IMG/VR virus record: IMGVR_UViG_3300017960_000030
Coordinates: 1 to 38,285 of that record
DNA: 38,285 bases
Origin: a virus
Reading direction: 5' to 3' (one strand)
How positions within the stretch are numbered: position 1 is the first letter of the stretch; every line of letters begins with the position of its first letter. The notes beneath the pieces were generated by a model. That model saw only the letters and a list, made by a program, of their open reading frames with translations, did not search any database and was not told the DNA's origin. Made by a program: the position numbers and the translations under genes. This document shows positions 3,959 to 37,833 of this stretch, piece by piece.

Positions 3959-5183
3959 ACTTCTGTTGCTCCTTTATAGCCTTTCTTACGTCAAGCTTGC
4001 ACTTATAACCTTTATCGTTAAAAACGTGTTTTACTTTTTTCATAAAATATTTTCCGCTAAAGTATGGACCAAGACCTTCAAAATTATGAATCTGCCTTGA
4101 CTGCAAATATTGGCATCCGTTAATCTCTGCCGATCCGTTAATAAAATCTTTAGCGAGTTTTTTCATGTGCATTGCTAAATAGTCTTTAGCGTCTTTTTCG
4201 TTTTCAAAATCTTTAGTAGATATTATTTCTACCATTTCTCCAAATGTTTGATTCCTTATTGTCGCTCCACTCTGTGTAGATTTATCGTCTACGTCGTCTC
4301 CTGCATCAACACCGCCTAATTTTATGTTGCCTAGTTCTGGTAAAAATTCGTCCATAGACATCGTATAAGATATTTTTCTCTCCATCTTTCTATCCCAGGC
4401 GAATACCTTATACTTTGTGAATTGATTTAAAACGGACATGCGTGGTTTGAAACTTAACAATTTGGCTAAAAGTTTCCCGTTAACATTTTGAACATTAAAC
4501 GGTGCGTTATCGTCGTTATATTTGAACGTCATAACTTCTTTTGTTCTATCTTTAGACGGTTCAAAAAACAGAGAAAAACGCTTCTGGTCTTTATTCCATT
4601 TGCAGTAAAGATCGTATGCGTTAAATTTTGCCAATTCTTTTAGAAAATCTAAGTCTGAAGATCCACGTTTTTGCTGTCGTACTTTTATCTCTTTCGTTTT
4701 TCTGATTCCAGCGTAAGAATCTGAATCTGTCGTGCTAATAGCAAATCCATTTCTTTCTCCCAAAATAGATGCTATTTGGCTGTCTCTGTACTTTTCGAAT
4801 TTTTCGCCCTTTTCAGATTTTCTAAGAGAAAGAAGGTGTAACCTGTCATACCCGATTATGTTTAATACTGGTTCACCGTTAGCAGAAAAATCTGGTTCTA
4901 GATCTGTCACGAATGCTGCACCGATATCAACCAAGTCCGTCCCGTATCCACCTTTTAATACAATTAGGTTGCCGGGACTTATAAGTTTGCTATAAAGGAT
5001 TCCTTCGTCTGTACCGCCTATTTTGTCTTGGCGATATGAAAGTTGGTAAGACATCGAAGATGCAAACTCTGATTCGTCTTCAAATTCTACTTTTCTGATT
5101 AAGCTATGTAAACGATCACTGAGTTCTGCTCCGTTAACTGTCAGTTTAAATCTTGGTGCGAATGGATCGTTTTGTATTGGCAT
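3951..5183 (-). CDS. Baseplate hub protein (gpD/gp27-like)
   Basis: A protein of 410 residues of the late-control-gene-D/gp27 type, which forms the trimeric hub linking tail tube and spike. Typical features are an N-terminal beta segment (PRFKLTVNGAEL), the phrase FEDESEFASSMSYQLSY, and the middle LDFLKELAKFNAYDLYCKW, the characteristic stretch where these proteins read FL..LA...g. The C-terminus has a second beta domain with FSGKYFMKKVKHVF. The start overlaps the preceding stop (TAATG). Gene order (tube initiator, hub, spike) agrees with contractile injection systems. The call is strong for the family; oligomeric state is inferred from relatives. Confidence 0.78.
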   Translation of the reverse strand: MPIQNDPFAPRFKLTVNGAELSDRLHSLIRKVEFEDESEFASSMSYQLSYRQDKIGGTDEGILYSKLISPGNLIVLKGGYGTDLVDIGAAFVTDLEPDFSANGEPVLNIIGYDRLHLLSLRKSEKGEKFEKYRDSQIASILGERNGFAISTTDSDSYAGIRKTKEIKVRQQKRGSSDLDFLKELAKFNAYDLYCKWNKDQKRFSLFFEPSKDRTKEVMTFKYNDDNAPFNVQNVNGKLLAKLLSFKPRMSVLNQFTKYKVFAWDRKMERKISYTMSMDEFLPELGNIKLGGVDAGDDVDDKSTQSGATIRNQTFGEMVEIISTKDFENEKDAKDYLAMHMKKLAKDFINGSAEINGCQYLQSRQIHNFEGLGPYFSGKYFMKKVKHVFNDKGYKCKLDVRKAIKEQQKYV

Positions 5184-6160
5184 TATACGTAAATCGTTCT
5201 TTCTTCACCTCTCCGCTCGAAGTGATCTTTAATATTTGTCAAATTTTCTGTTGTTCTTTTAAGTGGAATACATTGCGGAGTAACTTTTATGGTCTTAATT
5301 TCTTCATCGTCGACCAAATCAATAACATCTCCAGTATCTAGTGCTGTTTTTATCTGGCTTAACGGTTTGTTGTAATGTACTCTCCTCAGAACATCCCCAT
5401 AAAGCGCGTTACCGTATTCATTTTTAGATATATGCTCAAATGTTTGACCGTCCTTTGTTACTATGGTTCGGCCTTTTCTGTGCAAAGAACCGCCCGGAAT
5501 GTCTAAAAAATTAGCAACGGATTCTAAACCGATTCCAGCGGCAGCACTAGAGATTAAACCAAGGCCTCTTGTCACCAAAGATCCTATCGACAGTTCTTCC
5601 CCCAACTCCGAGGGAAGGTCTTCAATTTTCATAAGGACGACATCAAACGTCGCTTCTCGTATCGTCCCGTCAGGTCTAGGATCTGAATAACGGATATTAC
5701 CAACAGTTTTTACAAAACAAGTGCAGAGGACTTCCGTACCAGAAGAAAATTTAAAAATTGGTGCACGTTTTAATTTTTCATCTCTTCGGCAAAAGTTTTT
5801 AAGTTCTGTGATGCTCTTCGAGATATTTTTAATATTATACGTGGCATACATTTTAGTAGAAAACGTAATGTACTCGCCCTCTGCGCTTATGTACTTTCTA
5901 TCTATTTTCTGACTGTTTAATGCCGTTGAATCTGATATCTTTGCCCCAACATTTTCTGTTAGGTTTGTTGCTCTAAATTGTCCTCTAAATTCCGTGTAAG
6001 GAGAATCTACCATTTTCAAACGCCAAACATCTCTAGCGTTCAACCCAAAGAAATCTCCGAGAGGACTATTGCCAAGAATATCGCTAACGCCTGGAATTTT
6101 ATCCGCAGCATCTCTAGTGCTTCGTACAAAATTTGTTACTCTTTTAATGTTAAAAGCCAT
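5183..6160 (-). CDS. Tail tube initiator / hub adaptor with LysM-like domain
   Basis: A protein of 325 residues. Residues about 45-180 look like the tube-like domain of contractile-system tube initiators (for example SGTEVLCTCFVKTVGNIRYS followed by DGTIREATFDVVLMKI). Residues about 239-285 form a LysM-like module (QTFEHISKNEYGNALYGDV ... LDTGDVIDLV), as seen in gp53/gpX-like and Pvc7/8-like proteins, where LysM binds the hub or sheath-baseplate junction rather than cell wall. It lies between the tape measure and hub genes, exactly where this adaptor is expected. The start ATG is 2 nt beyond the tape measure stop. Family recognition is by pattern and context. Confidence 0.72.
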   Translation of the reverse strand: MAFNIKRVTNFVRSTRDAADKIPGVSDILGNSPLGDFFGLNARDVWRLKMVDSPYTEFRGQFRATNLTENVGAKISDSTALNSQKIDRKYISAEGEYITFSTKMYATYNIKNISKSITELKNFCRRDEKLKRAPIFKFSSGTEVLCTCFVKTVGNIRYSDPRPDGTIREATFDVVLMKIEDLPSELGEELSIGSLVTRGLGLISSAAAGIGLESVANFLDIPGGSLHRKGRTIVTKDGQTFEHISKNEYGNALYGDVLRRVHYNKPLSQIKTALDTGDVIDLVDDEEIKTIKVTPQCIPLKRTTENLTNIKDHFERRGEERTIYV

Positions 6161-6162
6161 AA

Positions 6163-8547
6163 CTATCCACCATAACCAGCTTGCGATTTAGGTTCTGCTG
6201 CTGTCTCTTTAAGCTGCAGTCCGATTTTATTATTGTGATGTCTTTGTTGCTTTTTAACTATCGTGTTTATTCCGTTTTCGTCTACCGTATTTTCTACTAC
6301 AACATTTAGGTCTGGAACATTTACAGTTGAAGGTGCAACATTTACTTGGACAGTTTGTGGTTTTGCAGAAGATGTTTTAGCCTTCATATGCGCAGCAGAA
6401 ATATTTTCCGTCTCCGGAGACGTTGTTTTTGCCGTTTCTTTCACAGGAAATGGAATTACATTCCCGCCTGCCGTTTTGGTTTCTGTAACAACTCCACCTT
6501 CATTTGCCTTACGCTCCAACTGTACTACTTTTTCTCTTGCAGCTTTTGTGGCAGATTCTTCAGCAGATTTTACTCCCTTCGCGCCTTCTTTTACGTTTTC
6601 TGATATCTCTTCTCCGGCTCCAATTCCAAAGAATTTTCCAACCCATTTTGCCGCTTTTACTCCAAGCGTCATTATTCTGATAAAACCTTCAGCAACCAGA
6701 GAGATAATTTGTATTACACCTGTAAAAGCTTTTACTATTCCTCCTGCAACAAACCCAACCACGCTACCAAATCCAGTAAAGTCGTTTTTGGCTTTTCTCG
6801 ATCCACCGAATATAGCCTTCATGAGAGATTCCCAGGCGTTACCCAACATTTCAAATGTTGGTGCAAGGTCTTCTTTCATCATGTCTATCCAAGGCATAAA
6901 GGAATCCATAAAACCAGCCGCAAATGTCGAAGCAGCCTCTTTTAGACCTTCCCAACCGCCCATAAGATTGTAAACAACGTAACCCAAAGCCCCTAAAGCA
7001 GCCACAACAAGCCCCACAGGACTCGCTAGGAAGGTTAAAACCGTACCGAAAACACCAACAGCACTGGCAACGCCAGAAATTATCGGTGTAAGGAACAATA
7101 TGGCTGCACCAAGAGCTAACAACGGTGGTCCAAGTAACGCAAAACCAACAGCAGCCTTTGTTATTATCCTAGATATGCTTCTAAAACTTGCACCGCTACT
7201 TTCTAACGATGTAAAAAGAGATCTAGCTGAATTCCAAAGGCTTACAACGGTTTCTTTTAAGTCTTGGAATGCGTCTACAACACCGAGAGCAAATTGCCCC
7301 ACGTTGCTAGACATTAATTTCTTTTGTGCATCGCTCCATTTATCCATTGGAGTTTTTATTGTGTTCATTGCCATAACAAATTGTTGAAAAGGCTTTGCTA
7401 CGGCTTGAAGTACGTCTTTTATTTCAAATATTTTAGCAAACATCTCACCGAGTTTGGTTATCGTTCCATCTGTTGCCGATGTTACCGACTTCCATGCCCC
7501 ATAGAGATTGTCTGTCATTTTCTCGTACATTATTTTTGCAGAACCCGGACCCTTTTCTCTTAGTTCTGTAAACAATTCTTCCAGTGCTTTTCCGCCTTTA
7601 TTTTGTAACGCGAAAAACGCTCTTTGTCCTCTTCGCCCAAAAATTTCTTGCGCTGCTGCCGCATTATCCAATGCCTTCGGGTGTTTCCTGAGTCCCACTT
7701 CAAACGCTTCCACAATTTCCGCCATAGAACGAAGCTTGCCCTCTGGTGTTTGGAGTTTATCCATCGTTATGCCCATTCCTTGCAACAGTTCTTGGGCTTT
7801 TGAAGTTGGTTTGGCCAATTTAGCCATCATGTTTGTTAGAGCTGTACCACCAGAAGATCCTTTAATACCAGCATCGGCCAACGCTCCCATCGAACCTATG
7901 ATTTGTTCCAATGGAATTCCCAGGTTAGCCATCGCGCCACCACCATAAGTAATGGCTTCCCCTAGCTGTTCGATGTTGGTATTCGTTCTAGCCTGTGCCA
8001 ATGCCATTGTGTCTGCGAGAATCGTGGCCTGTGCTGCTCTGTCGCCATATTTTTTCATTATTGGAGACATTGCAGACATACTGTCTGTGACGATATCAGA
8101 CGCCCTACCTAAATCCATTGCTCCAGCGGCTGCGGTATGTAACACAGTAGGTAAAACGGCCATAGCATCGGTAGCGTTAAAACCTGCCAACGCTAAATAT
8201 TCTAAACCTTGGGCAGCTTCTTTTGCACTAAACACCGTAGAAGCACCCATTTCTTCGGCCTTCATTTTCAACTGATCGTAATATTCTGCTCCGTCTTTCA
8301 TTTTGGCTGCAACGCTATCCATTTGGCGTTCTAAATCCATGTGTTTTTTCAACGCAACGCCTATTCCAGCGGCCATAATAGAACCAGCAGCTCCAACTGT
8401 TCTAGCTCCCGTTCCTACAGCAGACAATTTAGCGTTTGCGGAATGCAGTCTATCTTTAAATCTGTCCAACGCTTTTCCGCTGCGATTCAAGGACGACTGA
8501 ACACCTTTAGCACTAAATGTTAGAACTGCTGAAAGATTAAAAGCCAT
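6163..8547 (-). CDS. Tape measure protein
   Basis: A protein of 794 residues that fills the tail tube lumen and sets tail length. The N-terminal part contains the phage minor-tail/TP901-type core (about 95-330: FSAKEAAQGLEYLALAGFNA, then VLPTVLHTAAAGA and an amphipathic helix run). Two long hydrophobic stretches at about 465-490 and 494-528 are the usual membrane-inserting segments. The C-terminus is Lys/Ala/Thr-rich. Using the commonly quoted roughly 1.5 Angstrom per residue, the tail would be near 120 nm (an inference). The start overlaps the end of the frameshift ORF of the chaperone (TAATG), the classic chaperone-tape-measure arrangement. Confidence 0.88.
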   Translation of the reverse strand: MAFNLSAVLTFSAKGVQSSLNRSGKALDRFKDRLHSANAKLSAVGTGARTVGAAGSIMAAGIGVALKKHMDLERQMDSVAAKMKDGAEYYDQLKMKAEEMGASTVFSAKEAAQGLEYLALAGFNATDAMAVLPTVLHTAAAGAMDLGRASDIVTDSMSAMSPIMKKYGDRAAQATILADTMALAQARTNTNIEQLGEAITYGGGAMANLGIPLEQIIGSMGALADAGIKGSSGGTALTNMMAKLAKPTSKAQELLQGMGITMDKLQTPEGKLRSMAEIVEAFEVGLRKHPKALDNAAAAQEIFGRRGQRAFFALQNKGGKALEELFTELREKGPGSAKIMYEKMTDNLYGAWKSVTSATDGTITKLGEMFAKIFEIKDVLQAVAKPFQQFVMAMNTIKTPMDKWSDAQKKLMSSNVGQFALGVVDAFQDLKETVVSLWNSARSLFTSLESSGASFRSISRIITKAAVGFALLGPPLLALGAAILFLTPIISGVASAVGVFGTVLTFLASPVGLVVAALGALGYVVYNLMGGWEGLKEAASTFAAGFMDSFMPWIDMMKEDLAPTFEMLGNAWESLMKAIFGGSRKAKNDFTGFGSVVGFVAGGIVKAFTGVIQIISLVAEGFIRIMTLGVKAAKWVGKFFGIGAGEEISENVKEGAKGVKSAEESATKAAREKVVQLERKANEGGVVTETKTAGGNVIPFPVKETAKTTSPETENISAAHMKAKTSSAKPQTVQVNVAPSTVNVPDLNVVVENTVDENGINTIVKKQQRHHNNKIGLQLKETAAEPKSQAGYGG

Positions 8548-10210: not shown

Positions 10211-13200
10211 TTATTCGACACTTTCAAAAATACCCATTTTGCTCATTGTGATTATAAATCTTTCAATGGTATCAGCAAGTCGTAAGGATATTTCTGAGAA
10301 CATATCTCCAGCAGCCCTTGTTGCGTCTGTATTGATTTCACTGTCGAGCTTGATTTGACAAGCTTCTTCGAAATCAGCACCGCGAAGTGCACGTTTTTTG
10401 AACTCTGGACGGAAGTAAGATTTTAACGCCGACAGTGCCTTCACTTGTTCGATCTCATCATTGATCGCAAAAATTATCCAATCAAATGACTCTCTTAGAT
10501 CGTTTTCGTAATGTGACATCTGTTCGCGCTGATGTTTCCATTTCCAAGCCGGATCAACACTCACAGTTCTATCGCCCCAAATAACGCAATTGCCGTCGAT
10601 AAACTTCAAAATTCCGATACCCTGTTTGTTTAAGAGTTCTTCGTCTAAAGTTTTATCCCCGGTAGGTAATTCTACACACTGCGGAATTGTTGCGTCGATT
10701 CCAGCGGCTGCTTTATGGTATCCGTCGTAGTTCTTGGCAAACAACGCTTCTCGACCATAAATTGCACCACAAGTTGGTACGAGTTTTAGACCTGCTTTGG
10801 TTGGATGGGTTATTTTCATGAAACTTGGGAAGGTTACAACCGCGAAGTCGTTTCTTCCTAGAGTGTCATTAACCCATTCTTCTGCAGCTTCTTCCGTTAC
10901 GATATTGGAAGGAACCTGTTGACGATATTGATAGTTCAACGCTTCCGCGCATTCCATACCAGCCTTTTGAACCGCCGATGAAACAACGCCTGGGTTCGTA
11001 ATTTTTACGAGACCGCGTTTTTCGCCCTGAAGAGCAAGAATCGGAGTTGTTGTCGGATCGTAAAGGCTAATGTAATCGTTATCGTCAATGTCAGAAATTC
11101 CATCATATCCACCAGAAAATTCTTCCATGTATTCGACGCGATATGTGTTTCCAACCTGCGCATAATCCGTCATCGTAGAACCGCTTTTTACGGTTATGGT
11201 GTCGTATGTATTGGACACGATTTTGAATTTTTGTCTTCTGTTGGTGTCAACATTAGGATAAACATAACCACCAACCATTTCGTTAGGAACCCAAGGTTTA
11301 ACGGCCAATGTAAATTTATCGCCAACGATAAAATCAATTGAACCCTGTTGGATTGTGAACCCTATTCCGAAATCGTTTGGCGCAGCAAATGCCGTACCAG
11401 TTTTTGGTGTTGCACCGGAAATTAGACCAAGCGTCGCGCTTGTGTACTTCCATTCCTGATCGGCGCCACCAGAAAAGTCGGTTATGGTTAGATTGTCTGA
11501 AGCACCATCACTCTCGACGAGCGACCAACCACTTACAGCTTCTGGAATCCTACTTGTAAACGTAACCGTGGCTACGAGTACAGATTCAGCTACCTTTGCT
11601 GTTATTTCTGGGTATGCTGCTACAGCATTACCTAGTGCTATGGCTGTGCCACCAACGCTTCCAGCAATAACGCACCAACCTACAGTTGCAGGAACGGTTC
11701 CATCGATAAAATTGATATCATAATCGTTTCCATCGAACGTAAACCTAACATAATCTCCATCTCCAGCAGAATAATTGGATCTTGTTGCTGCGCTGAGTTT
11801 TAGCTCCGTAGCCATAGAACCACCAGATTGTCCGGTATCTGCAATTTCTAAACCAATTCCACGACCTTTGGCTTCTGATGTTACGATAAAATGGTCTGTA
11901 TCCCAGGCTACCGTTACTGTTCCGGTATATCCTGCCGCAGCTATTGCCGCATTTATTTTGGTTTGCATTTCCGTTGCAGTATTTGCACCTGTTGTGCAAG
12001 CCGCAAGAGAAATAAGCACTTCTACCAAACCTTGACCATAAAGGTTTACATTAAATTTATTGTGTGCGGCTCCTGTGAAGTCACCCAACGGATAAGACGC
12101 CGTTACGTCTGCACCAGTTACGACTGCTGCTGTTACGTCAAACGAATTGTTTGTAACTTCAACCGAACCAGACCCTTTAGATCCTGCACTGGTACATTCA
12201 ACTTCGATGTCGTCTTCTTGCGTATCTCCACCAAAAGTAAAATTGTCAACGTCTCCGTCGCCAGTCCCAGCAAAATCTATACCAATAACGTCACCTTTTA
12301 AGGTTGTAGGTGTTAACGCAACGGATTGACCGTGGGCGTTACTTGGTCGTATGTCTGATGTTATCGCACCTACCCAAGTGTTGGTAACTTTTACAAAATC
12401 ATTTGCATCGTCATCGTTAATGTACGATTCCCAATAATATTTGCTATCTGGGTCCATAGACAAATCTGGATATTCCAGAACTCTAATTCCATCTACATAA
12501 AATTCTAAACCGAATTCTGTAGTTGGATTTCGGACACCATCCTTAGCCAAGTAAGCCAACGCTTTATCATTGTTTTCGAGTTTTAATTTCCAAGTCTCAT
12601 CAGAACTACCCGTTTTTGCGTAGTCTGTTGCCATATCGGAATCTGCTGTTACGGTGATTACACCATCTGCGGTGTTAGAAACAACCGTATAAGATTTTCC
12701 CGGAATAGCCGCGAGACTAAACTTCGCATCTTTAAAATAATCCTTTAGCATTGTTTCGCCTGTGTCGAATGTCGTGCTAGACAGTCCGCCACCTCCGAAC
12801 GCCAAACCGAATACGATGTCTTTCTTTCCACCCCATCGTCCACCGTTTGCCGCTTCAAACTCACCAACTTCTGGGTTAGATGCGTCATTAAAAAGCAACA
12901 ACTGCGATCCGGTTAGATATGCGTCCAAGGCTGCCCCGCCTAAAGACAATCTAACAGTCCCAGCTACAGGTGTGTCCAAATCTACATCGGTTATATATCG
13001 AACACCAGTGTCACCACCGTCGTTGGATAAAACAACACGACGACCGATCTGCGGACTTCCTATTGCTAGATATTCGGCAGAAGTTAAGAATGCGTATTGT
13101 CCACTGCAATCGTCAGATAGCGTTGCAAACAATGCTTCTCGTTTTCTTGCTTTGACAGAAATTTTCGATGCTACTTCCGTTCCATCCGTCACGCGAAGTG

Positions 13201-13462
13201 CATATAATTCTCCTGCGCCCCTGCCCAATTTGTAAAAATCAAATGCTGCATCCGGGACTAAAGAATCATCAATAAAACTTCCTGCCTTCCTCTCGTACTC
13301 CTTTTTTGTTGCCACACGAAATAGCTTCCCTACTGGGCCACGTTCAAGAATACCAACCATAACAGACGTTCCAAGTCTACCTTTTTCGATCTGCTTTTCG
13401 GCATCTTTTTCGATTAAGACCGTTCCTGCGCCATCCGTTGGGCCATACCTACGTTGTACCAT
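10211..13462 (-). CDS. Tail sheath protein, very large with insertion
   Basis: A protein of 1083 residues, about twice the size of common sheath proteins. The N-terminal part (to about residue 120: GTSVMVGILERGPVGKLFRV, ELYALRVTDGTE) and the C-terminal part (about 785-1083: NDFAVVTFPSFMKITHPTKA, ENDLRESFDWIIFAINDEI, AGDMFSEISLRLADTIERFI) match sheath-fold patterns. Between them lie roughly 500 beta-rich residues. Residues 468-542 resemble a flagellin hook IN-type module (HNKFNVNLYGQG, TEMQTKINAAIAAAG, FIVTSEAKGRGIGL); 565-660 is a second module. Two related segments, 255-286 and 743-776 (VVSNTADGVITV, IVSNTYDTITV), flank it. The ribosome site lies in the loop of a hairpin. Confidence 0.85.
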   Translation of the reverse strand: MVQRRYGPTDGAGTVLIEKDAEKQIEKGRLGTSVMVGILERGPVGKLFRVATKKEYERKAGSFIDDSLVPDAAFDFYKLGRGAGELYALRVTDGTEVASKISVKARKREALFATLSDDCSGQYAFLTSAEYLAIGSPQIGRRVVLSNDGGDTGVRYITDVDLDTPVAGTVRLSLGGAALDAYLTGSQLLLFNDASNPEVGEFEAANGGRWGGKKDIVFGLAFGGGGLSSTTFDTGETMLKDYFKDAKFSLAAIPGKSYTVVSNTADGVITVTADSDMATDYAKTGSSDETWKLKLENNDKALAYLAKDGVRNPTTEFGLEFYVDGIRVLEYPDLSMDPDSKYYWESYINDDDANDFVKVTNTWVGAITSDIRPSNAHGQSVALTPTTLKGDVIGIDFAGTGDGDVDNFTFGGDTQEDDIEVECTSAGSKGSGSVEVTNNSFDVTAAVVTGADVTASYPLGDFTGAAHNKFNVNLYGQGLVEVLISLAACTTGANTATEMQTKINAAIAAAGYTGTVTVAWDTDHFIVTSEAKGRGIGLEIADTGQSGGSMATELKLSAATRSNYSAGDGDYVRFTFDGNDYDINFIDGTVPATVGWCVIAGSVGGTAIALGNAVAAYPEITAKVAESVLVATVTFTSRIPEAVSGWSLVESDGASDNLTITDFSGGADQEWKYTSATLGLISGATPKTGTAFAAPNDFGIGFTIQQGSIDFIVGDKFTLAVKPWVPNEMVGGYVYPNVDTNRRQKFKIVSNTYDTITVKSGSTMTDYAQVGNTYRVEYMEEFSGGYDGISDIDDNDYISLYDPTTTPILALQGEKRGLVKITNPGVVSSAVQKAGMECAEALNYQYRQQVPSNIVTEEAAEEWVNDTLGRNDFAVVTFPSFMKITHPTKAGLKLVPTCGAIYGREALFAKNYDGYHKAAAGIDATIPQCVELPTGDKTLDEELLNKQGIGILKFIDGNCVIWGDRTVSVDPAWKWKHQREQMSHYENDLRESFDWIIFAINDEIEQVKALSALKSYFRPEFKKRALRGADFEEACQIKLDSEINTDATRAAGDMFSEISLRLADTIERFIITMSKMGIFESVE

Positions 13463-16932: not shown

Positions 16933-17144
16933 TATAAAATACCTTCCCAGATTCTCTTTTTAATGTTCTTTTCCGTTTTCTTTTTCCATTCTCCATTTTT
17001 ATCTTTATACCATCCAGCGTTTTTAGCCGCTGCCCACGATATTTTAGAACACGATTCTTTAGATCCGCCTCCAGCTACACAGCTTGAGTACGTGCTTTCT
17101 AACAATTCGTTTAACGCTTTTGGCCCTCCGGTTACCTGTGGCAT
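16932..17144 (-). CDS. Small ChaB-like protein
   Basis: A protein of 70 residues starting MPQVTGG; the ATG at 17144 overlaps the hydrolase stop (TAATG) and has AAGAGGAC upstream, so the longer upstream start is rejected. The stretch from LLESTYSSCVAGGGSK to KISWAAAKNAGWYKDKNGEW resembles ChaB-family short proteins (acid/alanine helix, then AW.avk..y....g.W). Some phages carry such proteins in the head/neck cluster, function unknown. The C-terminus is basic (KKKTEKNIKKR). Family call is moderate. Confidence 0.5.
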   Translation of the reverse strand: MPQVTGGPKALNELLESTYSSCVAGGGSKESCSKISWAAAKNAGWYKDKNGEWKKKTEKNIKKRIWEGIL

Positions 17145-17746
17145 TATGTCCTCTTTTCTTGAACTAACGAATACTTGGAACGAGCCAAATAGCAATCTTG
17201 CGGAGTAAAGCTGGGATACCCAAGTCTACTTCTCAACTCTATAAAGTCTTCGCCAAGCACTCTATTATTTATACAGTATATCAATTCTGAACAAGAAACT
17301 TTATCTTTCTTAGTGAAATCAAGCCCGTAATCGTATGGTTTACCAAGATATTGAGAAGATATTTCTATCATTTGTTCACGCTGTCCAGACCAAGCTTCTT
17401 CTATTCTCATAACTGCGTAACAATCTGTTCTCATTATGAGATTCGCCAAATAATCTTCTCTAACACATGGGCTAACAGATTCAATTATTCTGTGTTCTCC
17501 AAACTCATCTTTACCCAAATACATTGCAGCATGTTTCCAATATCCGGGAATCGCTAAAGTTGTTAGTTCTCCTTTAGTGCGAGTAAGTATGACATCAGCA
17601 GGTTTGATAATTTTTGATAACGACAACACATCGTCATAATGTAAACCTTTTTTCGTCCAAGGTGCGTGTACGTTACCTATCAAATAGGCAACGCCCATTG
17701 TTGTAAGGCTAACTGTTTGAAAATATGTGCGTTTTAAAATGTCCAT
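17144..17746 (-). CDS. YiiX/NlpC-P60-like cysteine hydrolase
   Basis: A protein of 200 residues. The order is that of a permuted papain-like fold (YiiX/YebB type): KPADVILTRTKG, then a His motif GYWKHAAMYLG (H72), a strand/helix region, and the Cys motif KDKVSCSELIYCI (C152). These enzymes cut amide or ester bonds, including peptidoglycan cross-links. The N-terminal 25 residues are mildly hydrophobic (TVSLTTMGVAYLIGNV) but not a convincing signal peptide. An upstream TTG start is possible; the ATG at 17746 was chosen. Placement among decoration and connector genes suggests a virion-associated hydrolase or a processing enzyme. Substrate is unknown. Confidence 0.65.
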   Translation of the reverse strand: MDILKRTYFQTVSLTTMGVAYLIGNVHAPWTKKGLHYDDVLSLSKIIKPADVILTRTKGELTTLAIPGYWKHAAMYLGKDEFGEHRIIESVSPCVREDYLANLIMRTDCYAVMRIEEAWSGQREQMIEISSQYLGKPYDYGLDFTKKDKVSCSELIYCINNRVLGEDFIELRSRLGYPSFTPQDCYLARSKYSLVQEKRT

Positions 17747-17747
17747 C

Positions 17748-17900
17748 TCAACTCTCAAATATTGAAATTAAAGTGTCAAGCTTCTGTTTTAACGCAGTCT
17801 CCGAGCTTGCTTCAATAAACGTCTTAAACCCGCTGGGGTAACGCACATACCAAGTGTTTTCTCTTTTTAGTTGGTATTTAAAATTTCTATACTCTATCAT
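17748..17900 (-). CDS. Small hypothetical protein (50 aa)
   Basis: A 50-residue frame that starts MIEYRNFKYQLKRENTWYV and ends ISIFES. The ATG has AAGGAATAATT upstream, a good ribosome site, and the stop lies 1 nt before the hydrolase ATG; the upstream gene ends 2 nt before its start, so the frame fills an otherwise empty gap exactly. A central VRYPSGFKTFIEA and a C-terminal helix suggest a small alpha/beta protein. Function unknown. Confidence 0.6.
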   Translation of the reverse strand: MIEYRNFKYQLKRENTWYVRYPSGFKTFIEASSETALKQKLDTLISIFES

Positions 17901-29513: not shown

Positions 29514-30938
29514 TCATAAAACCCCAAAATCTCTACGAGATTTCTTCTGTTTTCTAAAAGCCCAAGATACAGCGATTTCAAACGCATCAAAATCGTCGTC
29601 GTGATCTGAATCTGGGAATTCTATCAAGCTATCTATAAAATCTTGTACGCCCCAGCGCGGAAAATACACGTCTCCATTTTCAAACTTACTAGACAGTGTC
29701 CACGCTCTGGTTACTTTATCTTTAATAGTGGTAATTGGTTTTACTGGAGCATCGGACAGGTGCATTACCAGTTCTCCTTGCACAGATTGGTATGCGTTAG
29801 ATTCTATGAATATCCTTCTTGGATGGTATTGGTTGTTTTTCTCTATTATTTTAGCAGTCTTCTGCAAAAAACTAAGCTTATCTTTAAACAAATCTATAAG
29901 ATAAACGCGCCCGTACTCGTCCTTGCCAATTGTTGCTATACAGAAGAAGTCGTGATTTTCTTCTTTTTTAACAGCCAGGTCAACCCCTTGATATACTGCG
30001 ATTTTATCTGGAAGAGAATCGTAGAATTTTATGTATTCATATTTAAAAATCTTTCCTTCCATTGCCGTTGTATCATTTTGATACTGGGTGTTGAAAATCG
30101 CTGTACCCATAGCCTTCTTTTTGGATAGCAACCATTCCAACGTCATTTTTTCTGGCCAAAGGGACTCTCCGTTTTTGTTTATTGCTGGCCAAACCCTAGA
30201 AATAAAACTGTCGTCGACCTTAGCAAGATGACCATAAAAATCTGAGGGATAATAACGTGTACCGTGAACGAACATGCGTCCATCTGGTTCTAATGTTGGT
30301 TCTAAACTCTTGTAAAACCAAACCTTAAACCGCTCACGTTGTAAATCTGTTCTAGAATTTTCTTCGTCAACAAGGTCGTCTGCAATTATCAAATCATAGT
30401 GGCGTCCAATAATTGCACCACCAACACCACAACAACTTATCGTAGATTCTTTGGCGAACGTCTTTCTGGTTTTTACGTTGATTTCTTTACTATCCCATTT
30501 AGCACCGACCAGATCACCAAACACGTCAATAAATTTATCATTTGCTTCTATATGTTGTTTAATTTCTCTTAGAAAAATTTCTGCCTGGAGTTGTGTGTTA
30601 GATACTATTAGGATTCTAATGTCTGGATTTTTAACAACTTCGAAAAGCGAACGGACCACTGTAAGAGATATTGACTTACCAATACCACGAGGTGCCAACA
30701 CCAACGTCTTATCGTTTGATTGTTGGAATTTCAACATAGACATGTGGCAAGGTTTTACTTGGTAGGATAATACCTCAGACATCAATAGATCTATTCTATC
30801 TAGATTTACGATAGATTCTCTAAGAACATCAGTCTCTACTCCGATATGATCGTAGTATTGAGTTTCTAGTTCTTTTCTATGCTTTAGCGCATCCACCAAA
30901 TCTGGTGCTTGCCCATCCGTGACAACTTCTTGTTCCAT
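29514..30938 (-). CDS. Terminase large subunit
   Basis: A protein of 474 residues. The ATPase domain shows a Walker A-like loop LVLAPRGIGKSIS (82-91), Walker B YDLIIADD (181-188), and a coupling motif VHGTRYY (224-230). The nuclease half has YQGVDLA (D320), IFIESNAYQ (E379) and HDDDFDAF (446-453), the acidic residues of the RNase H-like site. It packages DNA into the portal and cuts concatemers. It follows an RHH-like gene by 7 nt; the expected small subunit is not recognised by sequence. Good family call from three motif blocks. Confidence 0.85.
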   Translation of the reverse strand: MEQEVVTDGQAPDLVDALKHRKELETQYYDHIGVETDVLRESIVNLDRIDLLMSEVLSYQVKPCHMSMLKFQQSNDKTLVLAPRGIGKSISLTVVRSLFEVVKNPDIRILIVSNTQLQAEIFLREIKQHIEANDKFIDVFGDLVGAKWDSKEINVKTRKTFAKESTISCCGVGGAIIGRHYDLIIADDLVDEENSRTDLQRERFKVWFYKSLEPTLEPDGRMFVHGTRYYPSDFYGHLAKVDDSFISRVWPAINKNGESLWPEKMTLEWLLSKKKAMGTAIFNTQYQNDTTAMEGKIFKYEYIKFYDSLPDKIAVYQGVDLAVKKEENHDFFCIATIGKDEYGRVYLIDLFKDKLSFLQKTAKIIEKNNQYHPRRIFIESNAYQSVQGELVMHLSDAPVKPITTIKDKVTRAWTLSSKFENGDVYFPRWGVQDFIDSLIEFPDSDHDDDFDAFEIAVSWAFRKQKKSRRDFGVL

Positions 30939-31275: not shown

Positions 31276-31635
31276 CTAGATTCGGATTGGCCAGTTTATC
31301 GATTTTCCTTGTTTTTCTGATAGCTTATAAATCATCAGGGATAGAGGTTCCCAGGTTTGGGTGGGCCATACTGGTCGGTCTTCGGGATTGATTAATTCTT
31401 TCGGCCAAGGCGATTTATGGTTTTTACCTCTCCGTAACATCTCCTCGGCCAACTGGTCGTGTCTCTTGGCTAATGCTTTTGTGTACCCTATCCAGCGTTT
31501 TACTTCTGGGTGATTTTTCCATCCTACCTTGTAACAGCCAGCTATTGTTTTTGCTACTATCAATATTTCGTTGTGTTCGCCCAGAAGTCTTTTATCGTCC
31601 AAATACCAAACCGGAATAGGGTACCAAATTCTCAT
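31276..31635 (-). CDS. Pyrimidine dimer DNA glycosylase/endonuclease V-like protein
   Basis: A protein of 119 residues starting MRIWYPIPVWYLDDKRLLGE. The order LLGEHNEI, then KNHPEVKRWIGYTKALAKRH, then QLAEEMLRRGKNHKSPWP matches the Pyr_excise family (LLgEH.E, HPE..RW.G, RH..LaeEM..RG). T4 endonuclease V has a Thr at position 2 as catalytic base; here residue 2 is Arg, as in several bacterial members, so activity is uncertain. It would start repair of UV pyrimidine dimers. The ATG overlaps the preceding stop (ATGA). The next gene upstream in the operon is DUF932-like. Confidence 0.65.
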   Translation of the reverse strand: MRIWYPIPVWYLDDKRLLGEHNEILIVAKTIAGCYKVGWKNHPEVKRWIGYTKALAKRHDQLAEEMLRRGKNHKSPWPKELINPEDRPVWPTQTWEPLSLMIYKLSEKQGKSINWPIRI

Positions 31636-32447
31636 CGCTTTATCCAACCTGCCAATTCTGTTGCGATTTTTGTTGTGTATTTAAATTGGATATCTTCGTT
31701 TGGAGATTTATGTGTCATTACTTCGGTGGCAACATTAAAGAAGTCCCATTTTGTCTCTACAGTTTTTCGATCTATAGAGAGTTGTGGGTGGTTTATTCTA
31801 TCTTTCATCAAATCAACGTATTTTACAGGCACAGATTTTTTCTCTAAACATTCATCTAGGAATGTAATGGAATTTTCTGGAGTAAAAGATTCTTGAGTAA
31901 AACCACCAATGTATTTAATAAATCCATTATTAAAAGTGTCAAACGCTCTTACAAATGTTTCTTTGACGTTTATGCCTTCGATTCCTTTAGTGTGTTTGTG
32001 GTAAACCCCTGCAAATTTTTCTCCAACATAAAGACCGTTCGTACAAATTAATCGATATCCCCCGACAACAAATCTAAGTCCTGTGCTACTATTATAACTA
32101 TTATCTATATCGGTTCTCATTTGTACGATATCACCTTTGCCAGTAACATCGTATTCGTATTCTGGGAATACGACACCAACCCTGAGTCTTGCACCTTGAT
32201 GTGTCTGACTAATTTTTTCTACATTGTAAGCTATTCCCAAATCTTCCAGCGTGTTTCTTACTCTTTCGACGACATCATCGTGTTGCATAATAACGTAATC
32301 GTCTTTTACGATATTCATTACTTGGGATTCGTCCTCTTCGTTAACGAGAGCATTAAACCCTTTTAGCTCGTTACCCTCACAATCGAAAACTTTAATTTTT
32401 TGTGCGCGAACAAGATCTCGTTCGTCCCATTGACTTTGAAATTCCAT
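31632..32447 (-). CDS. DUF932-like phage/plasmid protein
   Basis: A protein of 271 residues starting MEFQSQWDERDLVRAQKIKV; CTAAGGAGAACTAGA precedes the ATG at 32447. Features of DUF932 are IVKDDYVIMQHDDVVERVRN, RLRVGVVFPEYE, NSYNSSTGLRFVVGGYRLIC followed by TNGLYVG, and a helical C-terminus. The family is widespread in phages and plasmids, with no agreed function. It is 1 nt beyond the receiver gene stop and overlaps the glycosylase gene. A DNA-processing or replication-linked role is often guessed but unproven. Confidence 0.68.
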   Translation of the reverse strand: MEFQSQWDERDLVRAQKIKVFDCEGNELKGFNALVNEEDESQVMNIVKDDYVIMQHDDVVERVRNTLEDLGIAYNVEKISQTHQGARLRVGVVFPEYEYDVTGKGDIVQMRTDIDNSYNSSTGLRFVVGGYRLICTNGLYVGEKFAGVYHKHTKGIEGINVKETFVRAFDTFNNGFIKYIGGFTQESFTPENSITFLDECLEKKSVPVKYVDLMKDRINHPQLSIDRKTVETKWDFFNVATEVMTHKSPNEDIQFKYTTKIATELAGWIKR

Positions 32448-32448
32448 T

Positions 32449-32877
32449 CTAGTTCTCCTTAGTAAAACGCCCGCTAGCAATTTGCTCGATAAATTCTAAT
32501 GGGCTAATGGTTTTAAAAACTACCTTTGCTTTTTCAGGTACATTCGGACTACAATGCCCAGTCCAAATAACAACCGGAGTTTGTTTAGAACATATTGTTT
32601 CAAAATAATGCTTACAAGCACCGGGCATTTGGTAGTCAGAAATAATTAGATCGTACTGATTTTCGTAAAAATTTCTCACAGCTTCGTGTGGACATTCGCA
32701 AATAGTTAGGTCTGCATTTATGGAACGCATTGCTAACTTCATCGTATCCCTGATCGACTGCGTATCGTCAACAAATAAGATTTTCATGGGTCTTCCTCCA
32801 ACAAGTTTATCGTAGTAATCACAGGCGGCTTCTAAATCTTCTACGCTAATTTCGTTTACTTCACTTACGTTCAACAT
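32449..32877 (-). CDS. Stand-alone response-regulator receiver protein
   Basis: A protein of 142 residues. From residue 31 the chain reads MKILFVDDTQSIRDTMKLAM (acid pair D37/D38), LIISDYQMPG (phospho-acceptor D81), VVIWTGH (T106) and KVVFKTISPLEFI (K122): all five key positions of a CheY-like receiver. No output domain follows. An N-terminal 30-residue helical tail precedes it. The ATG at 32787 (residue 31) has its own GTTGGAGGAAGACCC site, so a 112-residue receiver-only form is possible. No histidine kinase is in the window; the partner would be a host kinase. Upstream in the operon is a zinc-finger-like gene, downstream DUF932. Confidence 0.72.
   Translation of the reverse strand: MLNVSEVNEISVEDLEAACDYYDKLVGGRPMKILFVDDTQSIRDTMKLAMRSINADLTICECPHEAVRNFYENQYDLIISDYQMPGACKHYFETICSKQTPVVIWTGHCSPNVPEKAKVVFKTISPLEFIEQIASGRFTKEN
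32787..32801 (-). promoter_or_regulatory. Internal ribosome site and second start in receiver gene
   Basis: GGAGG lies 7 nt before the in-frame ATG at 32787, which begins exactly at the receiver fold (MKILFVDD). The upstream start at 32877 has GGGGAAAACA. Two products, with and without a 30-residue tail, are possible; or the tail is not translated. Confidence 0.5.
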
Positions 32878-33193
32878 TGTTTTCCCCAAAATTAACAGGG
32901 ACTAAATTGCTTTTAGCCAGATAGGGTTCTAGTTCTTCCCAAATACATTTCTTATGATAAACGTACTGACCGTGGCGCATTATAATTATCGGTTCTGTTA
33001 TGTCGCCGTTACAACGATCACAAATTATCACATCTTTCATGTATTTGTTATCTTCTGGAACCCATTCGTCAAGATCCGTCATAATAAAACTATCCGGAGG
33101 CATCATGGCTGTCATTGTCTTTTTGTTTTGTAAAAAATTCTCATACCGAGTTTTCACAAACTCCTCTCGTTTTATAAATTTCCATTCCTTCAT
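32861..33193 (-). CDS. Small zinc-finger-like protein
   Basis: A protein of 110 residues. Residues about 55-85 carry ICDRCNGDITEPIIIMRHGQ, then YVYHKKCIW: C-x2-C and a later H-x2-C, a possible treble-clef-like zinc site. The first half is basic and helical. GGAGAACAG precedes the ATG. Its stop region overlaps the receiver gene by 17 nt; it overlaps the winged-helix gene start by 4 nt. It may bind nucleic acid; not recognised further. Confidence 0.5.
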   Translation of the reverse strand: MKEWKFIKREEFVKTRYENFLQNKKTMTAMMPPDSFIMTDLDEWVPEDNKYMKDVIICDRCNGDITEPIIIMRHGQYVYHKKCIWEELEPYLAKSNLVPVNFGENNVERK

Positions 33194-33468
33194 CTGTTCT
33201 CCTTTCTATTAAATACTACTATTCGTTTTTTCCTGTTTTCTGGTAGACTTTTTTGTATTGAAAAATCTTTATAAAAGGAATCCTCAAACGCATAATATTG
33301 AGCTGGCCCACCTTCCGTTTGATCTTCTCTAATTATCAAATCTTTTTTCACTAACCTGTTAATCGTGTAAAACTTAGACTTGTTACCATTGGTAAAAACA
33401 AACGGAGTTTTTTGGTGGTTTGCTACCATAAAACACAAAACATCATATTCAGACGGTGTCAGCTTCAT
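33190..33468 (-). CDS. Putative winged-helix DNA-binding protein
   Basis: A protein of 92 residues: MKLTPSEYDVLCFMVANHQK (helix 1), KSKFYTINRLVKKDLIIRED (turn and recognition-like helix then wing strand), QYYAFEDSFY (wing). This order is that of small MarR- or DUF-type winged-helix proteins. The C-terminus is basic (ENRKKRIVVFNRK). The ATG overlaps the LigA stop. A transcription-factor role in the middle-gene operon is likely but unproven. Confidence 0.5.
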   Translation of the reverse strand: MKLTPSEYDVLCFMVANHQKTPFVFTNGNKSKFYTINRLVKKDLIIREDQTEGGPAQYYAFEDSFYKDFSIQKSLPENRKKRIVVFNRKENR

Positions 33469-35366
33469 TGTCCCTCCATTAATCTATTTAGTTTGTCTTC
33501 GTTTATAATCTCTACGCCAAGTTTTTCAGCTTTAGCCAACTTAGAACCAGGACTATCCCCAACAATTAAATAATCCAGCTTTTTGCTTACGCCGGATTTT
33601 ATAATTCCGCCACGCTCTTTAATTGCGCCTTCCACTAAACTTCTCGTCTCGGATAAGCCTCCAGTTATGCAGAAACTTTTACCTGCTAAAGTTTGATTTT
33701 CTGTGTTGCGTAACGGTGGTATTGCACGAACCCCTGCGAACAACAAACCCTTGACGGTTCTACTTCTTTTATAAAGACCGTCAACAATGGCTTCCGCTCG
33801 TAATTGCCCCAAAGAATCTATTCCTAGATTTAAAATGTGAGCAACATCCAGTTGCATAATCTTTTCTAAACTGTCAAACCCACCCTGCGTAATAAGCGTC
33901 TCCCATAACGTCATGCCTATATCTTTTATGTTTAATCCTGCTAGAAAAACGTGAAGAGGAATATCTTTGTACCGTTGATACGACAGCATGTTCTCTGCGG
34001 ATTTAAGACCGGTCCTAGAAACGTGCTGACAAACATCTTTCACGGAAATTAAATAAAGGTCGTCTAAATCTTCTACCAATCCGATTTCGAAAAGTTCTCG
34101 TAAGCGTTCTGGTCCAATACAATTTATTCTAAAATGTCCCTTTATTATATTTATCCAATGTTCTAATGTGCCAAGGTTTTTAGCTTTACAATCTTCGTTC
34201 GGACAAACTAAAAACGCTCCGTGTACTTCTGTTTTGTGTGAACACGTTGGGCAATTTAATGGGAAGACAGGCATGTACGTTGTTCTATTTTCTCCATCAA
34301 TTGATTTTTCAACGTGCGGAATCACGTCTCCGCGACGACTAACTATAACTCTGTCTCCGACTGCAATTTTCTTTTCGGCCATTTTGCTGATATTTGCTAA
34401 CGAAACACGCTCTACATTTACGCCAAGGTCGACTGGTTCAATCATCCCGACCGGAGTTATGTGTCCGTTTTTGCCAACGCTCCATTCTATCTTTTTCAAT
34501 GTTGTTTCTTTAGCTTCGGATGGGAATTTAAAAGCGATGCGAAATTTTGGTCTTCGGCGAGAAGAATATCCAACACGTTCTTTTAGGTTGCTATCATCAA
34601 CAGAATAAACAACACCGTCGACCATCCAATCTATATCGTGTCTTTTGTATAACATGTCATAGTAAACACGTTCTATTCCCTCTTTCGTCCCATAAACCCA
34701 ATAATTAATAAGATCAAGACCACATCCAGACAGAAAAGAAAACGCTTCTATATCGCTAATATAATCATCGTCGAAAACAACACCATAATACATCAATGTA
34801 CAGTACGAACAGTTTTTGCCACCTCGCGCAGCACCGCTTGCGCCATTCCTTGGGTTTTCGTATGGATTTTTATCTTCTGTAAAACGCAAATAATTTTCAA
34901 AGTCGCTTATCCTCATCACAATTTCAGCCTTCATCGACAGTGACTCTTTTGTATCGATTTTTCGTTTTACATTTTGCATCTGCAAAACATTGGCAGTAAT
35001 ATCCTCTCCGTATTCCCCGTCCCCTCTAGTTATGGCTTTTACCAGTAAACCCTTCTCGTAAATTAGTTCTACGGCAAGACCATCGTACTTCCACGACGAT
35101 ACAACCGCAGGTGTCTCTTCGCCGAAGGGATCTAGCCAACGCCACAATTCTTCGAACGTAATATTCCCTTCATCGTCTACAGATTTTTTCTTTTCGAGAG
35201 AAGACATGAAAACTCTATGCTTTACATTACGCGAAGATTTTCCGAACGAATCCATATCGGAAGCGTTCATCCCAAATCTTTTGTCGTATTCTTCGTCAGA
35301 AATTAGCGGACACCCTTTTCTGTAAGCAGCGTCCGCTTGTTCTTTAGTAATTTGTTGTAGATTCAT
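33465..35366 (-). CDS. ligA: NAD-dependent DNA ligase (LigA)
   Basis: A protein of 633 residues. Domain order: short Ia region with ISDEEYD (22-28), nucleotidyltransferase with the catalytic Lys in SSWKYDGLAVE (K93), TRGDGEYGEDITANV, AEIVMRI, NPRNGASGAARGG, an OB region with VGKNGHITPVGMIEP and GDRVIVSRRGDVIPHV, a four-Cys zinc finger (CPTC ... CPNEDC), helix-hairpin-helix repeats, and a C-terminal BRCT (LAGKSFCITGG, YLIVGDSPGSKLAKAEKLG). The active Lys sits about 22 residues nearer the N-terminus than in E. coli, so Ia is shortened. It seals nicks in phage DNA, using host NAD. Preceded by a 12-bp hairpin in an 83-nt gap. Confidence 0.9.
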   Translation of the reverse strand: MNLQQITKEQADAAYRKGCPLISDEEYDKRFGMNASDMDSFGKSSRNVKHRVFMSSLEKKKSVDDEGNITFEELWRWLDPFGEETPAVVSSWKYDGLAVELIYEKGLLVKAITRGDGEYGEDITANVLQMQNVKRKIDTKESLSMKAEIVMRISDFENYLRFTEDKNPYENPRNGASGAARGGKNCSYCTLMYYGVVFDDDYISDIEAFSFLSGCGLDLINYWVYGTKEGIERVYYDMLYKRHDIDWMVDGVVYSVDDSNLKERVGYSSRRRPKFRIAFKFPSEAKETTLKKIEWSVGKNGHITPVGMIEPVDLGVNVERVSLANISKMAEKKIAVGDRVIVSRRGDVIPHVEKSIDGENRTTYMPVFPLNCPTCSHKTEVHGAFLVCPNEDCKAKNLGTLEHWINIIKGHFRINCIGPERLRELFEIGLVEDLDDLYLISVKDVCQHVSRTGLKSAENMLSYQRYKDIPLHVFLAGLNIKDIGMTLWETLITQGGFDSLEKIMQLDVAHILNLGIDSLGQLRAEAIVDGLYKRSRTVKGLLFAGVRAIPPLRNTENQTLAGKSFCITGGLSETRSLVEGAIKERGGIIKSGVSKKLDYLIVGDSPGSKLAKAEKLGVEIINEDKLNRLMEGQ

Positions 35367-37394: not shown

Positions 37395-37619
37395 TCATAC
37401 TCCTTTTGTTTTAGAAATCGGTTTGTTTATCATTTCATAAAATTTTTCAAAGTCTTCCGCGGTTAACTCGTCAACAAGTCGCGCTACCAAACAAATAAAT
37501 TCATCAGGATCACCAAACTCGCCCCACTCATTTTGTGCTACACGATCCAAATGAACCCAGAGATCAAATCCAATGTGGTCTTCAAAATCTGGGTTCTTAA
37601 AATTTCTTTTAGTCTTCAT
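37395..37619 (-). CDS. Small hypothetical protein (74 aa)
   Basis: Starts MKTKRNFKNPDFEDHIGFDL; the ATG at 37619 sits 6 nt after GAGGAGG, whereas the ATG at 37625 would touch it, so the former is used. A helix-rich part (WVHLDRVAQNEWGEF, FICLVARLVDELTAEDFEKF) suggests a small alpha-helical protein. Overlaps the neighbouring gene by 11 nt. Function unknown; early small-gene cluster. Confidence 0.52.
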   Translation of the reverse strand: MKTKRNFKNPDFEDHIGFDLWVHLDRVAQNEWGEFGDPDEFICLVARLVDELTAEDFEKFYEMINKPISKTKGV

Positions 37620-37833
37620 ATTCATCCTCCTCTTCGTCCGGTTCGCAAACGTAATCCATAGTAACAGCTAAAAGATTGTTGTAGTCACCGGACGTTGCAC
37701 GTTTTTTGTATTCTTCGACGAGATCGTGGTGTCCTGCTCTTTTCAAGGCTTTTATGACGCGCCCCATTATTGCGAACGCATTACCATCTTCGCCGACCAA
37801 CTTACATGGTACTCTTTTAAAACCTTCTTTCAT
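37609..37833 (-). CDS. Small conserved-looking phage protein (74 aa)
   Basis: MKEGFKRVPCKLVGEDGNAF, then AIMGRVIKALKRAGHHDLVE, EYKKRATSGDYNNLLAVTMD, acidic tail EPDEEEDEYED. The pattern GedGNAf.im..v.kalr.ag..~...f...a..gdYd.ll....dyv is one I have seen as a small phage/bacterial unknown. Overlaps the next gene upstream by 4 nt; its acidic tail codes for the ribosome site of its successor. Function unknown. Confidence 0.58.
   Translation of the reverse strand: MKEGFKRVPCKLVGEDGNAFAIMGRVIKALKRAGHHDLVEEYKKRATSGDYNNLLAVTMDYVCEPDEEEDEYED

Follow-up and report, generated by a model that had tools for sequence, protein, structure and literature searches.

Introduction

A receiver domain is defined by five catalytic residues (DD, D, T/S and K), and a pseudo-receiver is one that lacks at least one of the five (PMC12632262). 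The residue three positions before the lysine (K-3) is aromatic in 86% of receivers according to the same study, which is also our source for the definition of Y-T coupling. On the phage side, Pseudomonas phage LSL4 encodes PIT4, a protein that binds to kinase domains of the host and stops twitching motility; according to its authors, direct interaction with a two-component system had not been reported earlier for any phage protein (PMC10714779). The cREC domains of jumbo phages are described as never found in histidine-kinase systems and as linked to NAD/ADP-ribose systems (PMC7824862). Literature searches for response regulators encoded by phages turned up no paper describing one, nor any on the function of those that databases already catalogue.

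Here we analyze a receiver gene in the IMG/VR virus record IMGVR_UViG_3300017960_000030, whose whole length of 38,285 bases is the window referred to below. By the definition of PMC12632262, the product of 32449..32877 is a true receiver, an identity strongly supported by its profile match, predicted fold and catalytic residues.

The window encodes a single-domain receiver with all five catalytic residues

The gene reads as follows:

32449..32877, (-) strand: receiver gene, long form; 142 aa from ATG 32877, a single-domain receiver by Pfam Response_reg, AlphaFold2 (AF2) and PDB matches

In a Pfam-A search, residues 33-117 of the protein match Response_reg with 35.6 bits against a cutoff of 30.2, the only receiver match to this family across the whole 38,285-base record. 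No other receiver-type Pfam family was matched at E 0.1, and no named NCBIfam family scored near its cutoff. The catalytic pentad is complete (D37, D38, D81, T106 and K122), and its presence makes the protein a true receiver and rules out a pseudo-receiver as PMC12632262 defines it. An alignment of 19 sequences shows no variation at D37, D38, D81 and K122; in the present protein, Thr follows K122. The open reading frame, its coordinates, its two ATGs and the five key residues are as the initial annotation gave them, in sequence and in translation. That annotation had also noted the lack of an output domain and of a kinase, and both points are borne out: the 142-aa protein carries no output domain, and the histidine kinase ATPase domain HATPase_c has no match anywhere in the 38-kb record. 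We also considered a defense system, which is ruled out, as PADLOC gave weak receiver-level matches only.

The predicted fold keeps the catalytic end and lacks helix α4

A first model, based on an 8-sequence alignment, was weak in its C-terminal half. The AlphaFold2 model from the 19-sequence alignment, which consists of receivers only, reaches a pLDDT of 83.6 and a pTM of 0.74, and comprises strands β1 to β5 with helices α1, α2, α3 and α5. Helix α4 is absent from this model, in which a loop without helix connects β4 (102-106) and β5 (118-121). Solved receivers in the PDB match the model with Z scores of 15.6-17.1 over 107-114 residues, including RR468 solved with its kinase HK853. The (βα)5 fold calls for five helices; five strands and four helices are predicted here, with α4 missing, and the PDB list is still filled with receivers. 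The structure prediction and receiver-family search proposed in the initial annotation thus both return a receiver, by AF2 model and by Pfam Response_reg. We also looked for the match to a non-receiver flavodoxin-like family that it had raised, and this alternative fold is unsupported, with receivers making up nearly the whole PDB match list.

The sequence departs from canonical receivers as well. The spacing from T106 to K122 is 16 residues, versus 22 in E. coli CheY; the K-3 position is V119 and not aromatic; and D+8, a relatively conserved Gly in receivers, is Lys. A CheY-type output surface would combine α4-β5-α5 with Tyr or Phe at K-3, and the protein has neither α4 nor such a residue, V119 standing in its place. 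From sequence and model, then, the catalytic end is intact and the usual output route (α4 and Y-T coupling) appears stripped. Receivers can signal through the α1-α5 surface too (PMC12632262), so the loss of α4 is no proof that output is absent. The missing helix and the replacement of the K-3 aromatic by V119 had been overlooked in the initial annotation.

The receiver is an accessory gene of a contractile-tailed phage

The record encodes a terminase large subunit, portal, head maturation protease, tail sheath, tape measure and baseplate hub, a set that identifies a contractile-tailed virus. Its structural proteins have distant homologues only, and no tRNA was found in the record. The tail sheath protein (10211-13462) is 1083 aa long and matches a sheath family over approximately its last 200 residues only, the remainder being unusually long; at 17144-17758 lies a permuted papain-like amidase (64.4 bits to Peptidase_C92) that may act in lysis or on the cell wall. 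Around the receiver, the gene order is DNA ligase, 92 aa, 110 aa, receiver, DUF932, pyrimidine-dimer glycosylase, 82 aa, terminase, with these features:

33465..35366, (-) strand: NAD-dependent DNA ligase; conserved marker gene of the tightly packed run, upstream of the receiver
32861..33193, (-) strand: 110-aa open reading frame upstream, function unassigned; shares its last 17 nt with the start of the receiver gene
31632..32447, (-) strand: DUF932 gene downstream, 1 nt past the receiver stop; Pfam DUF932, 42.8 bits
31276-31647: pyrimidine dimer DNA glycosylase; Pyr_excise, 77.5 bits; overlaps the DUF932 gene
29514..30938, (-) strand: terminase large subunit; conserved marker downstream and query for phage relatives

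The run from ligase to glycosylase is tightly packed, with overlaps of 4, 4, 17 and 16 nt and one 1-nt gap. Seven viral relatives were identified by terminase (54-66% identity), and the ligase, DUF932 and 82-aa genes are common to them where comparable; the ligase is 41-42% identical in loci L003 and L006, and the DUF932 gene has a relative in L006 at 34% identity. We looked for the receiver in these relatives and found it in none of the seven, so by gene content it is an accessory gene in a variable ligase-to-terminase stretch. IMG/VR searches with the DUF932 gene and the 110-aa open reading frame found no relatives bringing the same cassette, and profile searches gave the latter no confident family. 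The record is possibly a fragment of a phage genome, and a kinase or partner may therefore lie outside it.

Two translation starts are credible

The receiver gene contains a second in-frame start directly before the receiver fold:

32449..32787, (-) strand: short form; starts at internal ATG 32787, which has a strong Shine-Dalgarno, and comprises just the receiver fold (112 aa)
32794..32799, (-) strand: internal Shine-Dalgarno GGAGGA upstream of ATG 32787, from sequence and duplex energy
32788..32877, (-) strand: 30-codon N-terminal extension; acidic, with a predicted helix at residues 12-26 and no known relative

ATG 32787 is preceded by TTGGAGGAAGACCC, with GGAGG 7 bases ahead of the start and a Shine-Dalgarno energy of -9.3 kcal/mol against the anti-Shine-Dalgarno. 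This is stronger than the median of annotated starts in the 38,285-base window (-7.1 kcal/mol), and the long-form start ATG 32877 has -5.5 kcal/mol. Among the 261 internal in-frame ATGs of the window, ATG 32787 ranks second, which bears out the second ribosome site noted in the initial annotation; the sole stronger one sits two codons from an annotated start. At 37619 (-), two codons into the open reading frame 37395-37625, a Shine-Dalgarno reaches -12.0 kcal/mol, and the ATG there is probably the true start of that frame.

The extension itself looks coding. Its 30 codons lie at the 49th percentile when scored against genuine in-frame windows, and none of 357 open out-of-frame windows scores as high; translation of the extension, and hence production of the long form, is therefore probable. 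From its ribosome site, the internal start at ATG 32787 is probably used as well, making both starts credible. In the AF2 model the extension's helix (residues 12-26) has a pLDDT of about 70. Searched alone, the 30-aa extension gave no significant match, the only two hits having E = 6. An output module could be encoded by the 5' extension itself.

Viral stand-alone receivers show a similar trend

Searching IMG/VR with the receiver protein (P0001) alone returned no close homologue. An alignment search of IMG/VR returned viral receivers at 29-42% identity over part of the domain, and a genome search returned generic bacterial and archaeal receivers at 26-41% identity. The collections searched hold no close homologue, and thus no orthologue set for selection tests. 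Loss of the acceptor Asp in homologues, a point raised in the initial annotation, was looked for in the relatives found, which keep this residue.

For a wider comparison, receiver-motif pattern scans of IMG/VR gave 35, 5 and 2 stretches. The viral set comprises 16 receivers, stand-alone by length and motif (the present one and 15 others from these stretches); they were chosen by an MKIL-type N-terminus, and some of their contigs may hold host DNA. The bacterial control comprises 20 high-scoring stand-alone receivers and is hence biased towards consensus. The acceptor aspartates are present in all 16 viral receivers, and the complete catalytic pentad in 15 of them. The T-to-K spacing ranges over 16-24 with a median of 21 in the viral set (n=16, including the misaligned row L038, set by hand to 19), versus a constant 22 in the bacterial set (n=20), a difference with a Mann-Whitney p of 0.0025 that ignores kinship within sets. 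An aromatic K-3 residue occurs in at most 6 of 16 viral receivers versus 19 of 20 bacterial ones (p = 0.0003, kinship within sets again ignored). In a less biased bacterial set of 25 receivers from the genome search, the spacing is 21-23 in 24. These counts suggest a trend in which viral stand-alone receivers often shorten α4 and lose the K-3 aromatic, and nearly always keep the catalytic residues.

The view that phages rarely carry receivers, expressed in the initial annotation, holds only in relative terms: stand-alone receivers are present in at least 15 other viral contigs. When cultured phages were searched with a generic receiver, 211 records matched. The public 'phages' collection contains many Listeria, Enterococcus and Staphylococcus phage records with response-regulator-like matches (e.g. 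OR846742.1 and OR848345.1). Many such records look like bacterial contigs, which would inflate receiver counts, and we therefore set the 211 aside and do not use them as a frequency.

Histidine kinases in receiver-bearing viral records

At E 0.001 or better, HATPase_c has no match in 13 of the 16 receiver-bearing viral records, the present one included. The 139-kb record G016 (IMGVR_UViG_3300033512_000218; locus L087) encodes a stand-alone receiver at 4110-4529 (+) and, 0.9 kb beyond it, a 313-aa histidine kinase at 5478-6419 (+) with an HATPase_c match of 59.6 bits; judged from gene content, this pair is a possible complete phage-borne two-component system. The 16-kb record G014 (IMGVR_UViG_3300029268_001049) encodes a 1051-aa PAS/GAF hybrid histidine kinase with HisKA, HATPase_c and receiver domains (L088, 2598-5753 (-)), and on the same viral contig a separate stand-alone receiver (L046, 5926-6270 (+)). 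In the 543-kb record G017 (locus L030) there are three receiver matches, one of them CheY-like, and no match to HATPase_c.

A possible sink or decoy for host kinases

Our best reading, which we put forward tentatively as a possibility somewhat short of probable, is that the protein is a host-derived phosphoacceptor that competes for host kinases as a sink or decoy, with the ratio of its two start forms as part of the mechanism. Such a role is consistent with a predicted anatomy that retains the phosphoacceptor without α4 and Y-T coupling, in a record that has no kinase, and, by analogy, with PIT4, a precedent that makes host kinases a plausible target class here. In this model, a contractile-tailed phage would have a receiver domain of bacterial origin as an accessory gene located between ligase and terminase. 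During infection, host histidine kinases or Hpt proteins would donate phosphoryl groups to this receiver, which would dock on them via its intact active-site and α1 side. Since the α4-β5-α5 switch is absent, no ordinary signal would be passed on, and the protein would instead compete with host response regulators and damp host two-component signaling. Use of the two starts would determine how much bare acceptor is made relative to the form with the N-terminal helix, which may localize or dimerize the long form.

The main rival makes the protein a signaling adaptor: a phosphorylated single-domain regulator in the style of CheY, DivK or Spo0F that binds a specific host or phage target via its α1-α5 face or N-terminal helix, and so rewires signaling rather than draining it. 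An intact pentad and two forms that differ by an N-terminal helix would both suit an adaptor, and bacterial single-domain receivers with protein targets are known, for example an exopolysaccharide regulator (PMC12802240). However, the CheY/OmpR-type α4-β5-α5 surface is reduced (no α4, V119 at K-3, Gly to Lys at D+8) and the scanned neighbors include no chemotaxis gene, and we consider this role somewhat unlikely. We give less weight still, as a doubtful alternative, to a phosphorylation-independent binder, in which the fold would be a scaffold that directly blocks a host kinase or other host protein and the pocket a relic. PIT4 acts on kinases by binding and without a recognizable domain (PMC10714779), and the high sequence divergence of the present protein, whose best relatives are 26-42% identical over part of the domain, would fit such a binder; yet the five catalytic residues are kept despite this divergence, as they are in 15 of 16 viral stand-alone receivers, which argues for selection on the chemistry.

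That the gene is the receiver half of a phage two-component system, with its kinase beyond the 38-kb fragment, has counterparts in other viral contigs where a kinase accompanies a stand-alone receiver (L087 in G016, L088/L046 in G014). The lack of an HATPase_c match in 13 of the 16 receiver-bearing viral records speaks against it, though most of these records may be incomplete; we consider it improbable. Least credible, and very improbable indeed, is a passenger gene without selected function or a cREC-type cyclic-phosphate enzyme (PMC7824862). Among its relatives only this phage has the receiver, and jumbo phages do carry divergent cREC-type Rec domains, but the frame is open with phage-typical codon use and a strong Shine-Dalgarno, Response_reg is matched above cutoff with no other receiver-type family at E 0.1, and the pentad is complete.

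If the sink or decoy reading is right, a receiver that keeps the phosphoacceptor and lacks the output helix would represent a second route beside PIT4, in which the kinase's phosphate is taken rather than the kinase blocked. A broader proposal, speculative and on balance unlikely, is that tailed phages have repeatedly captured receiver domains, kept their phosphoacceptor chemistry and eroded the face used for switching and output, where α4 is short or missing and K-3 no longer aromatic, giving rise to convergent 'decoy receivers' that drain host kinases and that are tuned in this phage by two starts. The trend in the 16 viral receivers, if true in an unbiased survey, would amount to a recurrent host-takeover strategy, and small decoy receivers could serve as laboratory tools for shutting down bacterial signaling.

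Comparison with known systems

The present protein resembles canonical receivers (PF00072; CheY, Spo0F) in fold, strand order, the five catalytic residues and stand-alone architecture. Unlike them, it has no α4, Val at K-3, Thr rather than Pro after the catalytic lysine, Lys at D+8, and an N-terminal extension with a second start. Its proposed target, the histidine kinases of host two-component systems, is the same as for PIT4. PIT4 lacks a conserved domain and binds the kinase domain, whereas the present protein, a true receiver by its residues, could take the phosphoryl group. The cREC domains likewise have a receiver-like fold, catalytic aspartates and a phage carrier, but in contrast to cREC the present protein matches the canonical profile and has the T and K residues. 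We also checked its neighbors for an NAD/ADP-ribose link, and the nearest NAD-using gene is the ordinary NAD-dependent DNA ligase.

Other counterparts are catalogued phage receivers: A0A6C0R1B8 of Alteromonas phage vB_AmeM_PT11-V22, A0A6J5RMP2 ('CheY-like receiver') of an uncultured Caudovirales phage, and PHROG 731. Like the present protein, which has a PHROG receiver match, they are short, occur in tailed phages and have a similar predicted fold; in sequence they are not closely related to it, with 16-19% identity in structural alignments. Phage receivers as such are thus already in databases (BFVD, PHROG 731), and what is new here is a variant that combines a complete pentad, no α4 and two starts, together with the trend among its viral counterparts.
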